This document shows, in pieces, positions 14,106-38,664 of a DNA stretch of 42,933 nucleotides (the first letter of the stretch is position 1; every line of letters starts with the position of its first letter). The DNA is from Thiomicrorhabdus sp. GTDB lineage: Bacteria > Pseudomonadota > Gammaproteobacteria > Thiomicrospirales > Thiomicrospiraceae. Under the pieces are notes generated by a model, which was not told where the DNA came from, ran no database searches, and saw only the letters and a list, made by a program, of their open reading frames with translations. The stretch lies in assembly GCA_021648625.1 (NCBI GenBank), contig JAKISK010000005.1:1-42933 (forward strand), given 5' to 3'. A program made the translations under genes and the position numbers.

Positions 14106-16580
14106 ATGACACTGATTCAAACACAACAAAATGAAACCGTGCTAGAGGGCTTTTACCCTGAACAATTTAATCAAGCGGTTTCAAGTTCAATTTATCAAAC
14201 CTTTGTTGGTCAGCAGTTACCGAATGATAAGTTGTTTGTGGTGCTGGGAACCGATTCTGGTTTGTTAATTGATTATTTAGCGCGTATTGCAACGGCTGGT
14301 CAACGGTTTGTTTGTGTTGATTTTCCAGAGGTGATTGAATCTCTAAAGCAGACACGTGCGATGTTGTTTCAAGAGCATCCACATTTTAAAGTTGAACTCT
14401 ATACGTTTGAGGCGTTTGAGTATGAGCAACTTTATACCCGTCATGAAGATTATGTGATTCGAAATGCCATTATTTTATTACGCTCACTGGTGATGGTCGA
14501 AGGGAAGGGGGGGTATCAAAATCTTGATCAGAGACATCAAGAACGATTTCACCAGTTTCGTGTTGATCGTGTTGATAATCGCGATTTTAAAAAAACATTT
14601 GATCAGCAGATCGAAAATTCCTGCGATTTACAGCACCCTTTATCAGCCATTAAAGGGCGGTTAACAGGGGATATTCCCGCTATTTTATTAGGGGGTGGAC
14701 CCTCTTTAGATCACGTGATGCCTTGGTTAAAAGAGAATCAACAAAAAGTATGGATTTTTGCCGCCAGCCGAATTTGTAAACGATTGATTAAAGAGGGTAT
14801 TACCCCTGATTTTATTGGGGTGTTTGATGGGCAAGCGTTAATATTTGACTATTCAAAAGAGATGTATGAATTTGAAAAAGAGAGTATTTTAATTACGGGT
14901 GAACACCCACATGCATCCGTTATTCAGCAGTGGTCAGGATTAAAAACGTACAGTCGAAGACGTTTTCCTTGGGCAAGGGGGGGGGAGGAAAATTTTATTT
15001 CAGATGGGCCAACCGTTACCAATGCACTCTTTGGTATTAGTTGTTATTTAGGCGTGTCGCAACTGTATTTGGCTGGCGTAGATTTTTGTTTTACGCCAGA
15101 AGGTGTTTGCCATGAATCGGGCAGTATTGAAGCCAAAAATCAACAGCGAGATGCTTCGGATACCAAAGCAAAGAATTATCGAGGTGAAGAGGTTAGTACC
15201 AATATTCAATTGTATGATGCCCGTAATTTATTGGAAAAACACCTGCAAGAACTCAACAAAACATGGCCTGAGTTTCAGGCTTATAATTTGAATGATGGCG
15301 CAGCAGTGATAAAAAATATCGCGTATTGTGCTTTGGAACAGCTTGAAGAGAAGATTAAAGCAGGGGGGGATAAATTTAAGGTTGTAGAGGCCTTTGATGA
15401 TGCATTGCAGTACACTCACCAAACCGAAAAGCATTTTCAAACCTTTTTAAAAGGCGAGGTTAATTCACACTCTAAATGGTTGTTAAAGGTTGTTAAAGAG
15501 GCCAAAAAAGGCGTGCATTTAAGCAATACGTTATTTTCAGACCTCGCAAAACAACAGGCTAAAATTAAAGAGGTGCTTAAACTTAAAACAAAACTTGAAA
15601 AATTAGTGGGTGTGGATTATCAAACACTGGTTAATTATGGTTATCAGGCATTTATGGAAACGCTTAAACCCGTAGAATCTGAAACAGATATGTCGCAACA
15701 AGAGATGAAAAATGCATTAATTGGTTTTTTTGGCGGGTTACAGTTTGCGGCAGAACACTTTTTATTAAAGTTAGAAGCGCTAAAATCAGAAATAGCCTTT
15801 CGATTGTTAGAGCTGGATCCAAAAACAGAATTTACCACTTTGGGAGAGCATTGGATGGCTCAACACATTCCTGGCCGGTTTCAGGTTTGGTTAAACCACT
15901 TTGCGGTTAAATCTTATGCGGATTATGTGGCGAAATTTCCAAAGCAGGTTGAGCAACTGGAGCGAGCTTTTGAGTTTATGAAAACGGATGAAACGGCTTT
16001 AGAAAAACACTTTAATCAACGTTTTGATACGCCTGAAGAGTTTGTATTTAGACTGAACCGTGCGTTTAATGATAAGGATTTACTGGCGATTAAAGATATT
16101 GCACTACAACTTTCTTTTGTGGCGTCAGCGGAGCACGGCATTGTAAAATCGCTTGCTACGGGAATGTTGCTTGAATTAAAGAACAGTGAAAAAGATGCCC
16201 TTATTCACTATTTAACGGTTGATCCAAATCGAAAGAATTTTACCATTCAACAACAGGTTTTTCCGTTGGCATTTTCATTGAAGCAACCCGATAAAGGGTT
16301 GCAAGCACTGAGTGCGTTGAGTTTAATGAATGTAAATTATGTGCCTAAATACGCCGAAGCATTGGATATTTTAGGCGATGCTGACAATGCGATTGCTATT
16401 TACCGAGCGTATCCTCTGTTATATAAAGACACGGACGCGATGATTGAGTTGATTCGTTTATTAGTTTATAAACAAGACGTGGAGGCTGCGAATACGCTAT
16501 TGCAAAAAGCGGAAGCCAGTGCGTCACTGGATCAAGCGAAGTTACAGGCGTTTGTTCACTCTCTTAATGATCATTCCTAA
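14106..16580 (+). CDS. Maf-type flagellin glycosyltransferase (DUF115)
   Basis: Motility-associated factors transfer nonulosonic acids such as pseudaminic acid to flagellin serine or threonine. The central MAF_flag10/DUF115 domain is clear: AILLGGGPSLDHVMPWL (about residue 195), ITPDFIGVFDG, FISDGPTVTNALFGIS and YLAGVDFCF. The C-terminal third is helical, partly TPR-like, and may bind flagellin. Its 824 aa lie in the upper range for Maf proteins. It sits directly upstream of the flagellins. Three G tracts (14507 G7, 14977 G9, 15363 G7) lie in the gene; the G9 encodes ARGGEEN within the transferase domain. Its stop codon falls inside a dispersed repeat. Confidence 0.88.
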   Translation: MTLIQTQQNETVLEGFYPEQFNQAVSSSIYQTFVGQQLPNDKLFVVLGTDSGLLIDYLARIATAGQRFVCVDFPEVIESLKQTRAMLFQEHPHFKVELYTFEAFEYEQLYTRHEDYVIRNAIILLRSLVMVEGKGGYQNLDQRHQERFHQFRVDRVDNRDFKKTFDQQIENSCDLQHPLSAIKGRLTGDIPAILLGGGPSLDHVMPWLKENQQKVWIFAASRICKRLIKEGITPDFIGVFDGQALIFDYSKEMYEFEKESILITGEHPHASVIQQWSGLKTYSRRRFPWARGGEENFISDGPTVTNALFGISCYLGVSQLYLAGVDFCFTPEGVCHESGSIEAKNQQRDASDTKAKNYRGEEVSTNIQLYDARNLLEKHLQELNKTWPEFQAYNLNDGAAVIKNIAYCALEQLEEKIKAGGDKFKVVEAFDDALQYTHQTEKHFQTFLKGEVNSHSKWLLKVVKEAKKGVHLSNTLFSDLAKQQAKIKEVLKLKTKLEKLVGVDYQTLVNYGYQAFMETLKPVESETDMSQQEMKNALIGFFGGLQFAAEHFLLKLEALKSEIAFRLLELDPKTEFTTLGEHWMAQHIPGRFQVWLNHFAVKSYADYVAKFPKQVEQLERAFEFMKTDETALEKHFNQRFDTPEEFVFRLNRAFNDKDLLAIKDIALQLSFVASAEHGIVKSLATGMLLELKNSEKDALIHYLTVDPNRKNFTIQQQVFPLAFSLKQPDKGLQALSALSLMNVNYVPKYAEALDILGDADNAIAIYRAYPLLYKDTDAMIELIRLLVYKQDVEAANTLLQKAEASASLDQAKLQAFVHSLNDHS
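14977..14985. repeat. G9 tract in the maf gene
   Basis: The context is CAAGGGGGGGGGAGGAAAA, encoding ARGGEEN. Campylobacter maf genes are known to be phase-variable through poly-G tracts of similar length. Confidence 0.9.
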
Positions 16581-16826: not shown

Positions 16827-16913
16827 CGTAATTGAAGGCAGGAAACACTGTCTCAAAATATAAGAAACAGACAAACACAAAACACAATCAGGTACACACA
16901 AGGAGTAATTATT

Positions 16914-17735
16914 ATGGCTATGGTAATCAACACAAACATAGGTTCATTAAACGCAACCCGTCAACTTGATGGCTCAAGTCGTGACATGTCAGTATCAATG
17001 GAACGCTTAACCTCAGGTTTAAGAATTAACAGCGCCGCAGACGATGCCGCAGGGTTAGCGGTAGCAACCAATATGACCACCCAAATTATGGGAACCGACA
17101 TGGCGGTTCGTAATGCGAATGACGGCATCTCTTTAGCGCAAACCATAGATGGTGCTGCCGAAGAGATGGTGAACATGATGCAACGTCAACGTGAATTGAC
17201 CATTCAATCCTTAAACGGAACTTATACCGCCGAAAATCGTGACGCAATGAATGCCGAGTTTGATGCCCTATCCGCAGAATTAACTCGAATTGCAAGCACC
17301 ACCAAATTTAACGGTGTACCGATCATGGATACCACCGCACAAGTTGGAATTCATGCCGGTTGGGAAGATACGGCCGCCGATTCAATTGTGGTCACCGCCA
17401 TTGGTGGAACAGCCATCGCAGGTGCAGTGAGTGCCGTAGGCATTACCACCACAACATTAGCCGCTGCCGCGCTAGGTGTTTTGGATGTACAAATTTCGAC
17501 ACTCAGTACCGCCCGTTCAGGCGTGGGTGCCGTGCAAAACCGCTTGGAATACACGGTGGCAAACTTGCAGAATATTAGTGAAAATGTCAGTGCCTCTCGT
17601 TCATCCATTGAAGATGCCGATTTTGCCAAAGAGAGCGCCAATCTTGCGAGAACGCAAGTACTGCAACAAGCAGGGATGAGCATGTTAAGTCAGGCCAACC
17701 AAGCCTCACAGAATGTCTTGCAACTCTTGCAATAA
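16914..17735 (+). CDS. fliC: Flagellin, type A, copy 1
   Basis: This is a filament subunit of 273 aa with the conserved N-terminal D0/D1 region (MVINTNIGSLNATRQL, LRINSAADDAAGLAVATNM). A short central region follows, then the C-terminal D1/D0 region (FAKESANLARTQVLQQAGMSMLSQANQ). The short variable region (about residues 145-200) makes it a near-minimal flagellin. Serines and threonines around VQISTLSTARSG are possible acceptors for the Maf-linked sugar, by inference. The start has AAGGAG seven to eight bases upstream, and a sigma-28 promoter lies about 90 bases before it. It is a near-duplicate of the gene at 20129, with a few changes such as GTAIAGAVS versus GTGIASAVG. Confidence 0.95.
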   Translation: MAMVINTNIGSLNATRQLDGSSRDMSVSMERLTSGLRINSAADDAAGLAVATNMTTQIMGTDMAVRNANDGISLAQTIDGAAEEMVNMMQRQRELTIQSLNGTYTAENRDAMNAEFDALSAELTRIASTTKFNGVPIMDTTAQVGIHAGWEDTAADSIVVTAIGGTAIAGAVSAVGITTTTLAAAALGVLDVQISTLSTARSGVGAVQNRLEYTVANLQNISENVSASRSSIEDADFAKESANLARTQVLQQAGMSMLSQANQASQNVLQLLQ

Positions 17736-17821
17736 GAATTTTTTCATCAGACTAAGTTTGTTAAATAGCCCGATGAAAAATAAAATTTAAAACGCTTTTG
17801 ATGGGTGTTTTAAACAGAATT

Positions 17822-17839
17822 TGTCAAAGTAATTTGACA
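17822..17839. repeat. Perfect palindrome TGTCAAA-GTAA-TTTGACA between flagellins
   Basis: This hairpin or operator-like palindrome lies about 70 bases upstream of flagellin B and is conserved at 21036-21053. No T run follows, so it is not a classical terminator. A regulator site or RNA processing hairpin is possible. Confidence 0.6.
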
Positions 17840-17906
17840 GATAGATTCTAAGTTTAGCTGCCAGTTTGGGGCTATTACGATTCTTTATAAAATAAGGAGA
17901 ATTATC

Positions 17907-18728
17907 ATGGCTATGGTAATCAACACAAATGTAGGTTCATTGAACGCGACTCGTCAACTAGACAGTTCAAGTCGTGATCTTTCAGTCTCAATGGAACGTT
18001 TGACCTCTGGTTTACGTATAAACAGTGCCGCAGATGATGCGGCAGGGTTAGCGGTTGCAACGAATATGACCACCCAAATAATGGGAACGGACATGGCGGT
18101 TCGTAATGCCAATGACGGTATTTCAATGGCGCAAACCATTGATGGCGCATCGGAAGAGATGACCAATATGATGCAACGTCAACGTGAATTGGCAATTCAG
18201 TCCTTAAATGGAACCTATACCGCAGAAAACCGTGGGGCGATGGATGCAGAGTTTAATGCATTGTCTTCTGAAATTGATCGTATTGCGACCACCACTAAAT
18301 TTAATGGGGTTGAAATTATGGATACAGCGACCTCAACTAATTTACAAGTGGGTTGGGAAGCGACAGCGGATGATATTATTCAACTAACAACCATTGGTGG
18401 AGGAGCGATTGCAACCGCTGTTGCATTATTAGGTGTGGATTCGACATCAAATGCTGCATTGGCTATTGCTGGATTGGATACTCAACTAAGTACATTGAGT
18501 ACAGCACGCTCAGGCGTGGGTGCGGTGCAAAACCGTTTGGAATATACGGTGTCTAACTTACAAAATTTAAGTGAAAATACGTCGGCCGCACGTTCAGGTA
18601 TTCAAGATGCGGATTTTGCGAAAGAGAGTGCCAACCTTGCGAGAGATCAAGTGTTACAACAAGCGGGTATGAGTATGTTAAGTCAAGCCAATCAGTCTTC
18701 TCAAAATGTGTTAGCGCTGTTACGTTAA
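17907..18728 (+). CDS. fliC: Flagellin, type B, copy 1
   Basis: This is a second filament subunit, 273 aa, with the same D0/D1 ends as type A but a different centre (MDTATSTNLQVGWEATADD). Residues SENTSAARSGIQDADFAKES replace the type A SENVSASRSSIEDADFAKES. AAGGAGAATT lies before the ATG. No strong promoter is obvious. A TAAGTTTA-N13-GGCTATTA pair at 17849-17877 is a weak sigma-28 candidate, so it may be cotranscribed with flagellin A. It differs from the copy at 21120 at one residue that I can see (DSTSN versus DSTTN). Confidence 0.95.
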   Translation: MAMVINTNVGSLNATRQLDSSSRDLSVSMERLTSGLRINSAADDAAGLAVATNMTTQIMGTDMAVRNANDGISMAQTIDGASEEMTNMMQRQRELAIQSLNGTYTAENRGAMDAEFNALSSEIDRIATTTKFNGVEIMDTATSTNLQVGWEATADDIIQLTTIGGGAIATAVALLGVDSTSNAALAIAGLDTQLSTLSTARSGVGAVQNRLEYTVSNLQNLSENTSAARSGIQDADFAKESANLARDQVLQQAGMSMLSQANQSSQNVLALLR

Positions 18729-18766
18729 TTGATTAGAGAGGAATGGTTCAATAGGGAGGGTTTGAT

Positions 18767-19174
18767 ATGGAAATCAATGCTGTATCAACACCTGCTATTG
18801 GCAAAAGCGCTCTACAGTCTGATGTTAAATCGGCTGTAGAAGTGCAAACACCACGGCAGAAAGAGGTGTTCGTTGACACTTCATCTCAAAATGCTCAAAA
18901 GGCAAATGTAAAAGAGGTTCAACAACAGGTTGAACTAGTGAATTCAAAGCTCGAACAACTGGGTATGGGAGTCTCTTTTTCAGTAGATGAAAGTTCGCAA
19001 TCACCAGTGATTAAAATCATTGATCGATCAACGGATGAAGTGATTAAACAGTTTCCGAATGAAGATTCTCTTAAACGGATGCAACACATCCAAAGTTATC
19101 TGGATTCGGTACAACCTAATGGTAGTGCCAATAAAGAAAATTTGACAGGTGCCTTGTTCAATGAAATCATATAA
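18767..19174 (+). CDS. flaG: FlaG-family protein, copy 1
   Basis: This 135-aa flagellar accessory protein has a disordered N-terminal half and a conserved C-terminal FlaG domain: VNSKLEQLGMGVSFSVDESSQSPVIKIID, then TDEVIKQFPNEDSLKRM. FlaG homologues lie between flagellin and fliD genes and influence filament length. No fliD or fliS follows here; a second, larger FlaG-like gene does. AGGGAGG lies upstream of the ATG. It is nearly identical to the copy at 21980. Confidence 0.9.
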   Translation: MEINAVSTPAIGKSALQSDVKSAVEVQTPRQKEVFVDTSSQNAQKANVKEVQQQVELVNSKLEQLGMGVSFSVDESSQSPVIKIIDRSTDEVIKQFPNEDSLKRMQHIQSYLDSVQPNGSANKENLTGALFNEII

Positions 19175-19204
19175 GTAATTATATGAGGGTGAACGGGAGG
19201 AAGT

Positions 19205-19687
19205 ATGGCAACAATAAGTGGTATGCAACCGAGTGGCTCAACCGCTGCACCTATCAATAGCAGTATTGGTAATGCAATAAAATCGAGTGTTTCTGGCAGC
19301 CTACAAGGGGCAAGTCAGCAAGAAGTTACTCAAAAAATTGAGCAAAAAAAAGCAGACATTAGTCAACTGAAGTTGCAAGAAACAACCGACTCAATGAACC
19401 TTCGGTCACAAAAGCCGATGGACAGTACAGAATTAGATTCATTAATGCAGAATCTAAATACCGAATTAAAACAACTTCAGAATTATATGAAGTTTGAACG
19501 AGATAAAGATTCACAAAATATGGTGGTCTTTATTAAAGACAGTGAGACAGGTGAACTGATTCGTCAGATTCCAACGCAGGAATTTTTAAATATTTCTAAA
19601 ACAATTACACAGTTTTTAGAAATGCAGAAACAGTCCTCTGAAAAAATATCGCCACCGGTTGGAATGTTAACCAACGAGACGGCTTAA
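19205..19687 (+). CDS. FlaG-like protein 2, copy 1
   Basis: This 160-aa protein shares the FlaG C-terminal pattern (LNTELKQLQNYMKFERDKDSQNMVVFIKDSETGELIRQIPTQEFL) but has a different, longer N-terminus rich in S, Q and K. The DxxTGELIRQIP core is the FlaG hallmark. GGGAGG lies upstream of the ATG. It is the last gene of the unit before the AGCGGC/GCCGCT terminator. It probably acts with FlaG in filament growth, but a distinct role cannot be told from sequence. Confidence 0.85.
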   Translation: MATISGMQPSGSTAAPINSSIGNAIKSSVSGSLQGASQQEVTQKIEQKKADISQLKLQETTDSMNLRSQKPMDSTELDSLMQNLNTELKQLQNYMKFERDKDSQNMVVFIKDSETGELIRQIPTQEFLNISKTITQFLEMQKQSSEKISPPVGMLTNETA

Positions 19688-19771
19688 AAAACCTTTTAAA
19701 GCGTATAAATTAAACGATTTTTAAGTTGTAAAGAGAGTATCTCAAGGTGGCACAGTTTTCTTTGTGTGTTT

Positions 19772-19794
19772 AGCGGCTTCGGCCGCTTTTTTTT
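19772..19794 (+). terminator. Terminator of flagellin unit 1
   Basis: An AGCGGC/GCCGCT stem with a stable TTCG tetraloop is followed by eight Ts. It is duplicated at 22985. Confidence 0.92.
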
Positions 19795-19914
19795 GGTTTA
19801 AAATTTTGGCTTTTACCGATAGGTTGAACCGTTATATGAAGGGTTAATTCGCTTAATAATGGATTAAAATCTCGTACTTCTATAGTATAAAAAAGCCGTA
19901 ATGTTCTTATAAAA

Positions 19915-19940
19915 ACCACTCCTTTCAGAGTGGTTTTTTT
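19915..19940 (+). terminator. Terminator-like hairpin in the spacer
   Basis: An ACCACTC/GAGTGGT stem with a 6-base loop is followed by a T run. It is related in sequence to the hairpin at 16713, so both units are preceded by a GAGTGG-type terminator. Confidence 0.78.
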
Positions 19941-20013
19941 ATTTCATACCTCCCTGTACATAATGCCTGTAGCGTATCTTCTAGATTTTAATTCATTTTA
20001 TTTTAAAAAGTTC

Positions 20014-20040
20014 TAAAGCTTTTCTTAGCCCGACCGTTAA
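20014..20040 (+). promoter_or_regulatory. Sigma-28 (FliA) promoter of flagellin gene 3
   Basis: TAAAGCTT-N11-ACCGTTAA is the same as upstream of the first flagellin gene. Confidence 0.75.
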
Positions 20041-20128
20041 CGTAATTGAAGGCAGGAAACACTGTCTCAAAATATAAGAAACAGACAAACACAAAACACA
20101 ATCAGGTACCACACAAGGAGTAATTATT

Positions 20129-20950
20129 ATGGCTATGGTAATCAACACAAACATAGGTTCATTAAACGCAACCCGTCAACTTGATAGCTCAAGTCGTGAC
20201 ATGTCAGTATCAATGGAGCGTTTAACCTCAGGCTTAAGAATCAACAGTGCCGCAGACGATGCCGCAGGCTTAGCGGTTGCAACCAATATGACCACCCAAA
20301 TAATGGGAACCGACATGGCGGTTCGTAATGCCAATGACGGTATTTCTTTAGCGCAAACCATTGATGGTGCCGCCGAAGAGATGGTGAACATGATGCAACG
20401 TCAACGTGAATTGACCATTCAATCCTTAAATGGAACTTATACCGCCGAAAATCGTGACGCAATGAATGCAGAGTTTAGTGCATTGTCAGATGAATTATCA
20501 CGTATTGCATCCACCACCAAATTTAACGGTGTACCGATCATGGATACCACCGCACAAGTTGGAATTCATGCCGGCTGGGAAGATACAGCCGCCGATTCAA
20601 TTGTGGTCACCGCCATTGGTGGAACAGGCATTGCAAGCGCAGTGGGTGCTGTCGGCATTACCACAACAACTCTCGCCGCCTCCGCATTGGGTGTTCTGGA
20701 TGTACAAATTTCGACACTCAGTACCGCCCGTTCAGGCGTGGGTGCCGTGCAAAACCGCTTGGAATACACGGTGGCAAACTTGCAGAATATTAGTGAAAAT
20801 GTCAGTGCCTCTCGTTCATCCATTGAAGATGCCGATTTTGCCAAAGAGAGTGCTAATTTGGCCAGAACGCAAGTACTGCAACAAGCAGGGATGAGCATGT
20901 TAAGTCAGGCCAACCAAGTCTCACAGAATGTCTTGCAACTCTTGCAATAA
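20129..20950 (+). CDS. fliC: Flagellin, type A, copy 2
   Basis: This 273-aa flagellin is near-identical to the 16914 product. Differences cluster in the middle: SALSDELSRIAS for DALSAELTRIAS, GTGIASAVGAVG for GTAIAGAVSAVG, and ASALG for AAALG, plus NQVSQN near the end. The N- and C-terminal polymerisation regions are conserved, so it should assemble into the same filament. The leader differs from copy 1 by one inserted C before the ribosome binding site. Differences confined to surface-exposed parts suggest a functional second subunit rather than a decaying copy. Confidence 0.95.
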   Translation: MAMVINTNIGSLNATRQLDSSSRDMSVSMERLTSGLRINSAADDAAGLAVATNMTTQIMGTDMAVRNANDGISLAQTIDGAAEEMVNMMQRQRELTIQSLNGTYTAENRDAMNAEFSALSDELSRIASTTKFNGVPIMDTTAQVGIHAGWEDTAADSIVVTAIGGTGIASAVGAVGITTTTLAASALGVLDVQISTLSTARSGVGAVQNRLEYTVANLQNISENVSASRSSIEDADFAKESANLARTQVLQQAGMSMLSQANQVSQNVLQLLQ

Positions 20951-21035
20951 GAATTTCTTCATCAGACTAAGTTTATTAAATAGCCCGATGAAAAATAAAA
21001 TTTAAAACCCTAAAAAAGGTGTTTTAAACAAAATT

Positions 21036-21053
21036 TGTCAAAGTAATTTGACA
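21036..21053. repeat. Second copy of TGTCAAA-GTAA-TTTGACA palindrome
   Basis: It is conserved exactly although the bases just upstream differ between the two units (CCCTAAAAAAGG here), which hints that the palindrome itself matters. Confidence 0.6.
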
Positions 21054-21119
21054 GATAGACTCTAAGTTAGCTGCCAGTTTGGGGCTATTACGATTCTTTA
21101 TAAAATAAGGAGAATTATC

Positions 21120-21941
21120 ATGGCTATGGTAATCAACACAAATGTAGGTTCATTGAACGCGACTCGTCAACTAGACAGTTCAAGTCGTGATCTTTCAGTC
21201 TCAATGGAACGTTTGACCTCGGGTCTACGTATTAACAGTGCAGCAGATGATGCGGCAGGATTAGCGGTCGCAACCAATATGACCACCCAAATAATGGGAA
21301 CCGACATGGCGGTTCGTAATGCCAATGACGGTATTTCAATGGCGCAAACCATTGATGGCGCATCGGAAGAGATGACCAATATGATGCAACGTCAACGTGA
21401 ATTGGCAATTCAGTCCTTAAATGGAACCTATACCGCAGAAAACCGTGGGGCGATGGATGCAGAGTTTAATGCATTGTCTTCTGAAATTGATCGTATTGCG
21501 ACCACCACTAAATTTAATGGGGTTGAAATTATGGATACAGCGACCTCAACTAATTTACAAGTGGGTTGGGAAGCGACAGCGGATGATATTATTCAACTAA
21601 CAACCATTGGTGGAGGAGCGATTGCAACCGCTGTTGCATTATTAGGTGTGGATTCGACAACAAATGCTGCATTGGCTATTGCTGGATTGGATACTCAACT
21701 AAGTACATTGAGTACAGCACGTTCAGGCGTGGGTGCGGTGCAAAACCGTTTGGAATATACGGTGTCTAACTTACAAAATTTAAGTGAAAATACGTCGGCC
21801 GCACGTTCTGGTATTCAGGATGCGGATTTTGCGAAAGAGAGTGCCAACCTTGCGAGAGATCAAGTGTTACAACAAGCGGGAATGAGTATGTTAAGTCAAG
21901 CCAATCAGTCATCTCAAAACGTGTTAGCGTTATTACGTTAA
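21120..21941 (+). CDS. fliC: Flagellin, type B, copy 2
   Basis: This 273-aa flagellin is almost identical to the 17907 product; the only residue change I see is DSTTN for DSTSN. The near identity, compared with the more divergent A copies, points to recent gene conversion or purifying selection on type B. The same AAGGAGAATT leader and start context are present. It would be incorporated in the same filament as type A. Confidence 0.95.
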   Translation: MAMVINTNVGSLNATRQLDSSSRDLSVSMERLTSGLRINSAADDAAGLAVATNMTTQIMGTDMAVRNANDGISMAQTIDGASEEMTNMMQRQRELAIQSLNGTYTAENRGAMDAEFNALSSEIDRIATTTKFNGVEIMDTATSTNLQVGWEATADDIIQLTTIGGGAIATAVALLGVDSTTNAALAIAGLDTQLSTLSTARSGVGAVQNRLEYTVSNLQNLSENTSAARSGIQDADFAKESANLARDQVLQQAGMSMLSQANQSSQNVLALLR

Positions 21942-21979
21942 TCGTTTAGAGAGGAATGGTTCAATAGGGAGGGTTTGAT

Positions 21980-22387
21980 ATGGAAATAAATACTGTATCA
22001 ACACCTGCTATTGGCAAAAGCACTCTACAGTCCGATGTTAAATCGGCTGTAGAGGTGCAAACACCACGGCAGAAAGAGGTGTTCGTTGACACTTCATCTC
22101 AAAATGCTCAAAAGGCAAATGTAAAAGAGGTTCAACAACAGGTTGAACAAGTGAATTCAAAGCTTGAACAACTTGGCATGGGGGTCTCTTTTTCAGTAGA
22201 TGAAAGTTCGCAATCACCAGTGATTAAAATCATTGATCGATCAACGGATGAAGTGATTAAACAGTTTCCGAATGAAGATTCCCTTAAACGGATGCAACAC
22301 ATGCAAAATTATTTGGATTCGGTACAGCAAAATAGTATGAACAACAAAGAAAATTTGACAGGTGCCTTGTTCAATGAAATCATATAA
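21980..22387 (+). CDS. flaG: FlaG-family protein, copy 2
   Basis: This 135-aa FlaG is a duplicate of the 18767 gene. Changes lie mainly in the disordered N-terminus and near the end (MQNYLDSVQQNSMNN for IQSYLDSVQPNGSAN). The FlaG domain VSFSVDESSQSPVIKIID is unchanged. It has the same AGGGAGG ribosome binding site and the same neighbours. Confidence 0.9.
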   Translation: MEINTVSTPAIGKSTLQSDVKSAVEVQTPRQKEVFVDTSSQNAQKANVKEVQQQVEQVNSKLEQLGMGVSFSVDESSQSPVIKIIDRSTDEVIKQFPNEDSLKRMQHMQNYLDSVQQNSMNNKENLTGALFNEII

Positions 22388-22417
22388 GTAATTATATGAG
22401 GGTGAACGGGAGGAAGT

Positions 22418-22900
22418 ATGGCAACAATAAGTGGTATGCAACCGAGTGGCTCAACCGCTGCACCTATCAATAGCAGTATTGGTAATGCAATAAAATCGAG
22501 TGTTTCTGGCAGCCTACAAGGGGCAAGTCAGCAAGAAGTTGCTCAAAAAATTGAGCAAAAGAAAGCAGACATTAGTCAACTGAAGTTGCAAGAAACAACC
22601 GACTCAATGAACGTTCGGTTACAAAAGCCGATGGACAGTACAGAATTAGATTCGTTAATGCAGAATCTAAATACCGAATTAAAACAACTTCAGAATTATA
22701 TGAAGTTTGAACGAGATAAAGATTCACAAAACATGGTGGTCTTTATTAAAGACAGTGAAACAGGCGAGCTGATTCGTCAGATTCCAACTCAGGAGTTTTT
22801 AAACATTTCTAAAAGCATTACACAGTTTTTAGAAATGCAGAAACAGTCACCTGAAAAAATATTGCCACCTGTTGGTATGTTAACCAACGAGACGGCTTGA
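22418..22900 (+). CDS. FlaG-like protein 2, copy 2
   Basis: This 160-aa protein is a duplicate of the 19205 gene with only a few substitutions (for example NVRLQKP for NLRSQKP and KSPEKILPP near the end). The FlaG-type core SETGELIRQIPTQEFLNIS is intact. It closes the second flagellin unit before the terminator. Confidence 0.85.
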   Translation: MATISGMQPSGSTAAPINSSIGNAIKSSVSGSLQGASQQEVAQKIEQKKADISQLKLQETTDSMNVRLQKPMDSTELDSLMQNLNTELKQLQNYMKFERDKDSQNMVVFIKDSETGELIRQIPTQEFLNISKSITQFLEMQKQSPEKILPPVGMLTNETA

Positions 22901-33007: not shown

Positions 33008-34213
33008 TTAACATCCATTTAAATAAATATCGCCTTTTGTATCAATATCAATATCGACTTTGACGAGCGATTCATTTCTACAAGGTCCTTCAATACACTC
33101 TCCATTTTCAACCTTAAAAAAAGCATCGTGTATGGAGCATTTTAGCGTTTTTTCAAAAGGGTTAACGTCAATCTTATAGGCTTCGTCTAACGGTACATTT
33201 TGGTGTGGGCAGTTATTTACATACGCTTTGATTGTGTTCTGATATTTAATCAATAGGATAGAAGGGCTGTTTTCGCTCGCTTTAATCACTTGTGTTTTTG
33301 CATTGCTGAGATGCTTAATATTGGCAATGGGTTTGAGATGATTTTTTTGCAGTAAGTGGTCTAAGCCATGTTGTGTGCATTTTTGTGCGGCAAATTTATT
33401 GGCCTGACTCACAGCCTCTTTAAAATTACTTTTTTGAATTAAGTGATGGATGAGTGCTGCATTAAATGTATCGCCTGCACCTAAGGTATCAATAATAGGA
33501 TGAACTTCTTCCGCTTTAATATGCTGAACTTTTTGTTGAATATCCGAAAACCATACGCCTTGATTGCCCCATGTACATGCTAGTTTTGTATTAGGCGCTT
33601 CTTTTTGAATTTGTGTGAGCAGTTCAAGCCCATTTGAAAAGCCTTTTTCAGTGGCGTAGTGGTGAGAAAATATCACTAAGTTCACTTGATTAAAAAGTGC
33701 TTCAATGCCCTTCCTGCACTTTTCAACTTCAAGCGAGATGGGTTGATGGGTTAAAAAGGTTTTTGCGATATTTATCATTCCAGCAAGGTTTTCGATATTT
33801 CGACCCTCAAAGTGAAGCCAGTCAAATTTTTCCACAGTAATTTTTGCAAAGTGTTCAAAGGTGACTTCGGGTAGCTCTCTATAGTGCACAATAGTTCGTT
33901 GCCCATTTTTTTGATTAAGCGTGATAAATGAGGAAGGGGTTTTTCCTTGAATAAAGGTTTGGATGTGTGCCGTTGATAGATGGCGCGCTTTAAACCCTTT
34001 TAGAATTTGTTTGGCCTCTAAGTCGGTCGCTAATGCACAGCAAATGGCACAGTCATGCCCAAGTTGATTTAAAATATATAATGTATTGTTGATGTTTCCC
34101 CCCGGTGAGAGAGTTTTACTAAGTGCTCTTACCTCTTGGTCTTCTTGAGGGTAGTGCTTGACGGTGAAAATTGTGTCTAATACTGCATTACCAATACCAA
34201 GTATTTTTGCCAT
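33008..34213 (-). CDS. PfkB-family sugar kinase fused to a Rieske [2Fe-2S] domain
   Basis: From the preferred ATG at 34213 the product is 401 aa. Residues 1 to about 290 are a ribokinase/PfkB-type kinase, with LSPGGNINNTLYILNQLG for sugar binding and DTLGAGDTFNAAL with the catalytic base near D247. Residues from about 300 form a Rieske domain with C335-x-H337 (CPHQNVPLDE) and C359-x2-H362 (CSIHDAFF), the right spacing for one cluster. No stop separates the parts. The kinase resembles ketohexokinase-type members; the substrate is unknown. The tracked start at 34405 adds a K/F-rich stretch I think is untranslated. The role of the Rieske part is unknown; redox control of the kinase is one guess. 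Confidence 0.85.
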   Translation of the reverse strand: MAKILGIGNAVLDTIFTVKHYPQEDQEVRALSKTLSPGGNINNTLYILNQLGHDCAICCALATDLEAKQILKGFKARHLSTAHIQTFIQGKTPSSFITLNQKNGQRTIVHYRELPEVTFEHFAKITVEKFDWLHFEGRNIENLAGMINIAKTFLTHQPISLEVEKCRKGIEALFNQVNLVIFSHHYATEKGFSNGLELLTQIQKEAPNTKLACTWGNQGVWFSDIQQKVQHIKAEEVHPIIDTLGAGDTFNAALIHHLIQKSNFKEAVSQANKFAAQKCTQHGLDHLLQKNHLKPIANIKHLSNAKTQVIKASENSPSILLIKYQNTIKAYVNNCPHQNVPLDEAYKIDVNPFEKTLKCSIHDAFFKVENGECIEGPCRNESLVKVDIDIDTKGDIYLNGC

Positions 34214-34970: not shown

Positions 34971-35052
34971 AACGAAAATCAGGCGTATTTTAGCCTTTTT
35001 TATTCGTGCCTCCTTTCGTGCAAAGATCTCATAAAGATTGAGTAGGTTATTT

Positions 35053-35778
35053 ATGACTGAAATTAAGTCAGCATTTAATGCAAGTTGTCGGAACTGTGGA
35101 TTACAAAAAGTATGTTTTCCGACAGGGTTAGTGAAGTCAGATATTGACCGATTAGATCAAATTGTTGATCGAAAAACACCCCTTAAAAAAGGTGAGTATT
35201 TATTTCAAGCGGACGATGCATTTGTTTCATTGTATGCCATTCGAGCGGGCGTTATAAAGCTGTACTCTTTTTCGGACACTGGCGAGGAGGTTATTCATGG
35301 GTTTTATTTACCAGGGGATGTTTTAGGCGTTGATGCTTTGGCGACTAAGCGACATAATATGAATGCGATTGCAATTGATACGGTAAGTGTGTGTGCATTG
35401 CCATTTGATCAATTGACTGATTTATCATTGAAAATACCGAGTTTGAACCGACAGATTATGATGGTTATGAGTAAGGAGGTGAACGAAGGTCGTTCGCATT
35501 CTGAAATGTTGATTAAGCGAAATGCAGACCAACGTGTGGCTCAATTTATTTGGAGCATGGCTGAGCGTTATCGTACACGTGGTTATGTTTGTGATGAATT
35601 TCGGTTAAATGTGTTACATCGAGATGTTGCCATTCACCTAGGGTTGACGCCAGAAACGGTTTCTCGTATTTTAGCTAAGCTTCACGCTGAAAATATAGTG
35701 ACTTGGAAAAAGAAAGAAGTAAAAATTCATAATGAAGAGGCTTTGAGGGCTTCTGCTGGCAGAAAGGAAGAGGACTAG
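35053..35778 (+). CDS. fnr: FNR-type oxygen-sensing transcription regulator
   Basis: This 241-aa Crp/Fnr regulator carries all four cluster cysteines of a [4Fe-4S] oxygen sensor: C12, C15 and C21 in CRNCGLQKVC, and C114 in VSVCALPF. The cyclic-nucleotide-like sensor domain is followed by a C-terminal helix-turn-helix DVAIHLGLTPETVSRILAKL whose E-x-x-S-R contacts fit TTGAT half-sites. ATG 35053 has AGTAGG upstream and is better than TTG 35038. It should activate anaerobic or microaerobic genes. The long leader with a MITE and a hairpin is unusual. Confidence 0.93.
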   Translation: MTEIKSAFNASCRNCGLQKVCFPTGLVKSDIDRLDQIVDRKTPLKKGEYLFQADDAFVSLYAIRAGVIKLYSFSDTGEEVIHGFYLPGDVLGVDALATKRHNMNAIAIDTVSVCALPFDQLTDLSLKIPSLNRQIMMVMSKEVNEGRSHSEMLIKRNADQRVAQFIWSMAERYRTRGYVCDEFRLNVLHRDVAIHLGLTPETVSRILAKLHAENIVTWKKKEVKIHNEEALRASAGRKEED

Positions 35779-37902: not shown

Positions 37903-38664
37903 TTAAGCGTTAACTTGTTGTTTACGTCGACGGAAGGCCATAAAACCAACCATTCCTAGGCCACCCAGCATTAATGCATAAGTGCTTGGCTCTGGTACAG
38001 GGCTTACCTCTAGACTGAAATTGCGAACTTTATGCCAATCGGTTTTTCCGCCAGTTGCTGCGGTAAAACCAAAGTAAAAATCATCGGCTTGATAGTTTTC
38101 AATCGTGAAATCATCAATAAAGGTTTCGCCATCAATATTGACTGAAATGTCACCATTATCAAAATCAATATGAACATGACGGTAAGAATTGCTGCTTAAG
38201 TTAAAATCAACGTCTTCTTGAATGAGTGCATTCGATGCAGAATTTTGAATCACTGCTACATGGTTAGAACTGCCGCTATCCCAGCTGTTTCGGTATGTAT
38301 CGAATTCAACAGCATATCCTGTCATTCCAGTGAACCCAAGGTTTCCACCGCCAGTTGTTGAGGCATTAGGATCGGTTACCCAAGCAAATGTTAAACCATC
38401 GGCTTCAGAACCCCAGCCCATTTTTATGTCAAACTCCGCACTAAATGAACCGACATTTTCAAATGACATGTTTGTAAAAGCACTTCCTTTTTGCCATTTT
38501 TTATTGGGGGTTAAAATAACGCCGTTGTTTACATGGGATTGGCTTATGTAGGCATCGCCTCCAAGTGTCATATCGGTGTTAAAATCAAAATCCTGCATTG
38601 CCGCTTGCGCTGATGTCGCTGAAATTAGGGCGACGGTTAGTATGGATTGTTTTAAATATTTCAT
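37903..38664 (-). CDS. PEP-CTERM sorted protein with L-type lectin-like domain
   Basis: This 253-aa exported protein has a signal peptide (MKYLKQSILTVALISATSAQA). A concanavalin-type beta-sandwich follows (NVGSFSAEFDIKMGWGSEADGLTFAWV, TGYAVEFDTYRNSWDSGSSNHVAV), resembling legume-lectin domains. The C-terminal sorting tail has VPEPSTYALMLGGLGMVGFMAFRRRKQ. PEP-CTERM tails are cut by an exosortase (EpsH), which is not in the window. It probably serves extracellular polysaccharide or biofilm matrix. It is convergent with fur. Confidence 0.88.
   Translation of the reverse strand: MKYLKQSILTVALISATSAQAAMQDFDFNTDMTLGGDAYISQSHVNNGVILTPNKKWQKGSAFTNMSFENVGSFSAEFDIKMGWGSEADGLTFAWVTDPNASTTGGGNLGFTGMTGYAVEFDTYRNSWDSGSSNHVAVIQNSASNALIQEDVDFNLSSNSYRHVHIDFDNGDISVNIDGETFIDDFTIENYQADDFYFGFTAATGGKTDWHKVRNFSLEVSPVPEPSTYALMLGGLGMVGFMAFRRRKQQVNA

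Follow-up and report, generated by a model that had tools for sequence, protein, structure and literature searches.

Two textbook protein families provide the closest described counterparts of the gene studied here. Ketohexokinases (KHK; KHK-A and KHK-C of animals) belong to the PfkB/ribokinase superfamily and have neither a Rieske domain nor a Rieske partner. Fructose is contacted in human KHK by D15, G41, N42, N45 and D258, as well as by E139 via water (PMC2651755). The Rieske-type ferredoxins of aromatic dioxygenases (e.g., CARDO-F, 3gce, and BphF, 1fqt) bind their cluster with a C-x-H and a C-x2-H motif, lack the loop cysteines of the bc1 type and serve an oxygenase. The chloroplast sensor kinase/Hik2 is a protein kinase known to be regulated by an Fe-S cluster, which makes its activity depend on redox state (PMC6949291). 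This is an analogy only, i.e., the protein belongs to the unrelated histidine-kinase family and carries a [3Fe-4S] rather than a Rieske cluster.

Here, we investigated a gene that joins a PfkB kinase and a Rieske domain. It is located on a window of 42,933 nucleotides (the whole stretch of DNA that was analysed) from Thiomicrorhabdus sp. Frame inspection confirmed a single uninterrupted frame of 401 codons for amino acids on the minus strand, and Pfam assigns both parts above the curated cut-offs: PfkB to residues 1-287 (E 4.5e-31; 108.7 bits vs. 25.8) and Rieske to residues 295-381 (E 2.3e-10; 40.7 bits vs. 20.3). The one-frame fusion with GAGD, C-x-H and C-x2-H motifs that the first-pass annotation had described is thus borne out by frame, Pfam and motifs. 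Since both matches exceed the Pfam cut-offs, automatic domain databases very probably list the PfkB-Rieske architecture already. The gene is single-copy in its source genome (1.92-Mb assembly in 96 contigs, about 80% complete). Respective features are listed in Table 1.

Table 1. Features of the fusion gene and its divergent neighbour (window coordinates).
Feature	Position	Strand	Basis
Kinase-Rieske fusion gene, 401 aa	33008..34213	-	ATG start at 34213, stop 33008-33010; Pfam, family-wide conservation
Ketohexokinase-like PfkB kinase domain (predicted), residues 1-287	33353..34213	-	PF00294, PDB sequence search, Foldseek
GAGD, residues 245-248, putative catalytic base D248 (= human KHK D258)	33470..33481	-	sequence
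Short linker, about residues 288-299	33317..33352	-	interdomain position; pLDDT 78-83 around 281-300
Rieske [2Fe-2S] domain, ferredoxin type (predicted), about residues 300-398	33020..33316	-	PF00355, subfamily profile
First Rieske ligand motif, C335-P-H337	33203..33211	-	sequence; invariant in 73 Rieske domains
Second Rieske ligand motif, C359-S-I-H362	33128..33139	-	sequence; invariant in 73 Rieske domains
Additional cysteine pair, C373-I-E-G-P-C378, invariant in the subfamily	33080..33097	-	fused, adjacent and stand-alone Rieskes compared
fnr/crp-family regulator, divergent neighbour (context only)	35038..35778	+	Pfam HTH_Crp_2 + cNMP_binding

Kinase and Rieske are separate neighbouring genes in other lineages, such that one frameshift, i.e., a sequencing or assembly error, could imitate a fusion. 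We consider such an artefact extremely improbable. The full fusion is present in 60/60 genomes of the source family with 45-90% identity, many of them closed, single-contig genomes. The uninterrupted frame is found in 58/60 of these, single-contig ones included, no family genome carries two separate genes (0/60), and additional fused copies are known outside the family. Named relatives among the matches are Thiomicrorhabdus, Thiomicrospira, Hydrogenovibrio and Sulfurivirga, i.e., a sulfur-oxidising group. Within the family alignment, M1 of the fusion is conserved. Compared with the closest relatives, and where dS is not saturated, dN/dS is 0.07-0.11 for the kinase and 0.13-0.21 for the Rieske half; both halves are under purifying selection. 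A sequencing error, or relatives with the parts always separate, had been named by the first-pass annotation as observations that would speak against a fusion; neither agrees with a fusion in all 60 genomes and selection on both parts. Relatives of the fusion were not found in viral contigs, i.e., there is no sign of viral spread. The two family genomes with a broken frame (L061:7447-8583 in G019 and G007:C180:8569-9766) reflect either sequencing error or decay, where the break in G019 lies directly past the last Rieske ligand.

The best PDB sequence matches of the kinase part are human and mouse ketohexokinase. Residues 3-287 align to KHK positions 5-297 (E 1.4e-43), with about a third of the residues identical. 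Ketohexokinases are also the best fold matches of the AlphaFold model in Foldseek (human KHK, 2hlz: E 4e-31, TM 0.91 over the KHK chain), and ribokinases are far behind in both comparisons. The contacts of human KHK to fructose correspond to D13, G39, N40, N43, D248 and E136, all of which are invariant in the source family. The same six residues are kept in 82 kinases, paired with a Rieske or not, with a single deviation at E136 and D248 being invariant in 82/82. That is, whole-domain alignment, fold, fructose contacts and GAGD motif all point to a ketohexokinase-like enzyme. The generic label of a sugar kinase given by the first-pass annotation was correct with regard to PfkB and too broad otherwise. 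The kinase is predicted to be active and to phosphorylate the C1 hydroxyl of a ketose, i.e., fructose or a related sugar. Following RTIV, its pocket-side segment lacks one residue relative to human KHK and shows an invariant His110, such that the substrate may not be fructose.

Sulfofructose kinase YihV (PfkB; 7ag6) is the second-best fold match behind KHK (TM 0.85). It shares only 24% identity and has no Rieske domain; an assignment to this specific family is not supported. We also rejected a role in sucrose recycling and a link to sucrose synthesis: relatives with a sucrose cluster have a separate PfkB fructokinase adjoining the sucrose genes, and close relatives without the cluster retain the fusion all the same.

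The Rieske part is best described as a predicted ferredoxin-type domain. Its cluster-loop sequences are CPHQNV and CSIHDA, which lack the disulfide cysteines of bc1/b6f Rieske proteins (C-T-H-x-G-C and C-P-C-H, respectively), such that a member of that group was discarded. A Rieske oxygenase was discarded, too: there is no C-terminal catalytic mononuclear-iron domain and the only other domain found by Pfam is PfkB. By profile, ferredoxins of dioxygenases and monooxygenases are among its closest solved relatives. Ligand motifs, similar size and missing bc1-type loop cysteines are shared with CARDO-F and BphF. In contrast to these, the domain shows a longer gap between the ligand pairs as well as an extra C-x2-G-P-C motif (C373/C378), of which 3gce, the closest ferredoxin of solved structure, has just the second cysteine in the alignment, and its partner is a kinase instead of an oxygenase. 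The position of C373/C378 is, we assume, the Pro-loop of the Rieske fold, and the Pro-loop of Rieske proteins lies over the cluster. A profile built from unfused Rieskes matches the fused domain with 7.9e-23. The four cluster ligands and C373/C378 are invariant in 73 Rieske domains, be they fused, adjacent or stand-alone; the constant ligands argue for the predicted cluster. The C-x2-G-P-C subfamily occurs in about 143/369 genomes of the class sample described below, mostly without known partner.

The AlphaFold model of the fusion has a mean pLDDT of 92.9. Its Rieske region consists mostly of strands (pLDDT about 81-92), with only kinase matches among the best 50 of the fold search; a single-sequence model of the Rieske part alone is poor (pLDDT 45). 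Structure prediction, as suggested by the first-pass annotation for the study of the interface, thus yields two confident domains and, with a pTM of only 0.74, no evidence for a fixed interface. This would fit loosely tethered domains.

To place the fusion among unfused relatives, we used a sample of 369 Gammaproteobacteria genomes, among which 102 bear the kinase. A Rieske domain directly follows the kinase in 37/102 (9 fused, 28 as separate gene), a C-x2-G-P-C-type Rieske is encoded elsewhere in the genome for 22/102, and 43/102 are without a Rieske of matching kind. Another 78 of the 369 genomes carry the Rieske without the kinase, i.e., the Rieske has a life of its own. Kinase and Rieske co-occur significantly (Fisher p = 6e-7, uncorrected for relatedness). 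The stronger point is the positional constancy: at every adjacent locus examined, the Rieske is found 3' of the kinase on the same strand, the Rieske domain lying 23-56 nt beyond the stop of the kinase. Chance falls far short of explaining this in genomes with about 3,000 genes. In some loci the two genes even overlap (e.g., by 4 bp at L051). Within a phylum-wide sample, 2/399 genomes are positive at E <= 1e-25. Based on these gene arrangements, kinase and Rieske are best read as an old module of Gammaproteobacteria, with the gene studied here as a putative fused form of the two-gene pair. The first-pass annotation had seen no obvious precedent for such a protein. We likewise found no publication on the kinase-Rieske combination in the open-licence literature, whereas the genomes show the fusion to be fixed in the source family and the unfused pair to be scattered through Gammaproteobacteria.

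A careful tree of the kinases implies three changes for the fused state, namely for the 18 rows of the source family, for G204 together with f158, and for G113. At least two of these are forced by well-supported branches, and a single fusion origin is not rejected (AU test, p-AU 0.146). The fusion thus probably arose more than once, as judged from this tree. A quick tree also suggested three independent fusions, but its own AU test opposed them, and that tree is unreliable on this point. The kinase-Rieske pairing as such needs 14 changes on the kinase tree, i.e., partners were often lost or gained.

Beside the pair itself, flanking genes vary by lineage. Neither an oxygenase nor a reductase was found to recur beside the pair or beside stand-alone Rieskes, and no other partner of the latter recurs in more than 6/40 loci. 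The adjacency of fnr, which the first-pass annotation had put forward, is real: the gene is a divergent upstream neighbour at a distance of about 0.8 kb and is found beside the fusion in most of 17 family loci. It is absent at L009, L010, L053, L055, L058 and L060, and the adjacency does not recur in the other lineages looked at. It therefore has little weight as a functional clue, and we rejected fnr as functional partner, given a synteny confined to part of the source family. In 16 Gammaproteobacteria loci (L045:6948-7250 and 15 others), the kinase is preceded by a membrane-like protein of ~100 aa with a C-x2-C ... C-x2-C pattern and no Pfam match. This protein is a second partner of the ketohexokinase-like kinase, observed in another set of Gammaproteobacteria than the Rieske.

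Regarding function, we tentatively propose, at a probability somewhat short of even, an ATP-dependent KHK-type ketose 1-kinase with a C-terminal ferredoxin-type Rieske domain acting as redox or iron-sulfur switch. The kinase domain would phosphorylate fructose or a related ketose at the C1 hydroxyl. Less certain than this step, the Rieske module would be a switch rather than a catalyst, i.e., oxidation state or loss of the cluster, possibly together with C373/C378, might alter activity or assembly of a kinase dimer. An accessory role is suggested by kinase active-site residues that are the same with or without Rieske partner; a comparison of 82 kinases revealed nothing clean that distinguishes paired from unpaired ones. 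That the Rieske is accessory rather than catalytic is also indicated by the 43 kinase-bearing genomes that have none of matching kind. Accessory clusters on non-redox enzymes commonly serve regulation or stability.

The same observations have to be weighed against two other readings. The Rieske could be an ordinary ferredoxin that exchanges electrons with an oxidoreductase acting on the kinase's substrate or product, such that the fusion provides co-localisation instead of regulation. The ferredoxin-type domain without bc1 disulfide cysteines, its oxygenase-ferredoxin profile neighbours and the many genomes in which the same subfamily stands alone are in line with this. We nevertheless hold it to be unlikely, because electron transfer needs a redox partner and none recurs at pair or stand-alone loci, and because a general carrier would hardly be expected to pair again and again with one kinase and with no redox enzyme. 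Alternatively, the cluster domain might stabilise the kinase or target it for removal upon failure of iron supply or Fe-S assembly, with redox state being irrelevant. Fusion and tight gene coupling, as in the overlap at L051, fit such a subunit, as do kinases that manage without a Rieske. On the other hand, a purely structural part needs no invariant ligands and cysteine pair, unless the cluster itself is structural, and we rate this reading as likewise unlikely. As no redox partner recurs nearby, we tentatively prefer a kinase gated by redox state or iron over electron transfer, and the redox- or oxygen-gated phosphorylation that the first-pass annotation had brought up remains plausible. A more far-reaching version, in which the Rieske cluster, possibly with a redox-active C-x2-G-P-C pair, directly switches a metabolic sugar kinase, would be the first Rieske-gated small-molecule kinase and a new means of redox control, widespread in Gammaproteobacteria; we regard it as a doubtful though serious candidate.

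The architecture itself is real and conserved, and the coupling of its two known families is apparently undescribed. A family-wide fusion and neighbouring genes elsewhere suggest that sugar phosphorylation is linked to redox state in a way not yet described. If the kinase is under the control of the Rieske, a ketose would enter metabolism depending on redox state, by means of a cluster whose role elsewhere is electron transfer. The module spans many Gammaproteobacteria, including chemolithoautotrophs without obvious sugar diet. As the fusion is a small single chain, the question is directly testable, and the kinase pairing offers a lead to the function of the C-x2-G-P-C Rieske subfamily.

Further features were observed elsewhere in the window. 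Positions 16861-22900 hold a tandem duplication of about 3.2 kb, laid out as two flagellin-flagellin-FlaG units. The four flagellins have 273 aa each, with 74-97% DNA identity between related copies, and FlaG is encoded twice. Just upstream of the flagellins (14106-16580), we find an 824-aa MptE-like protein of a kind seen in flagellin glycosylation clusters. Finally, a legume-lectin-like protein with PEP-CTERM sorting signal is encoded on the minus strand at 37903-38664.
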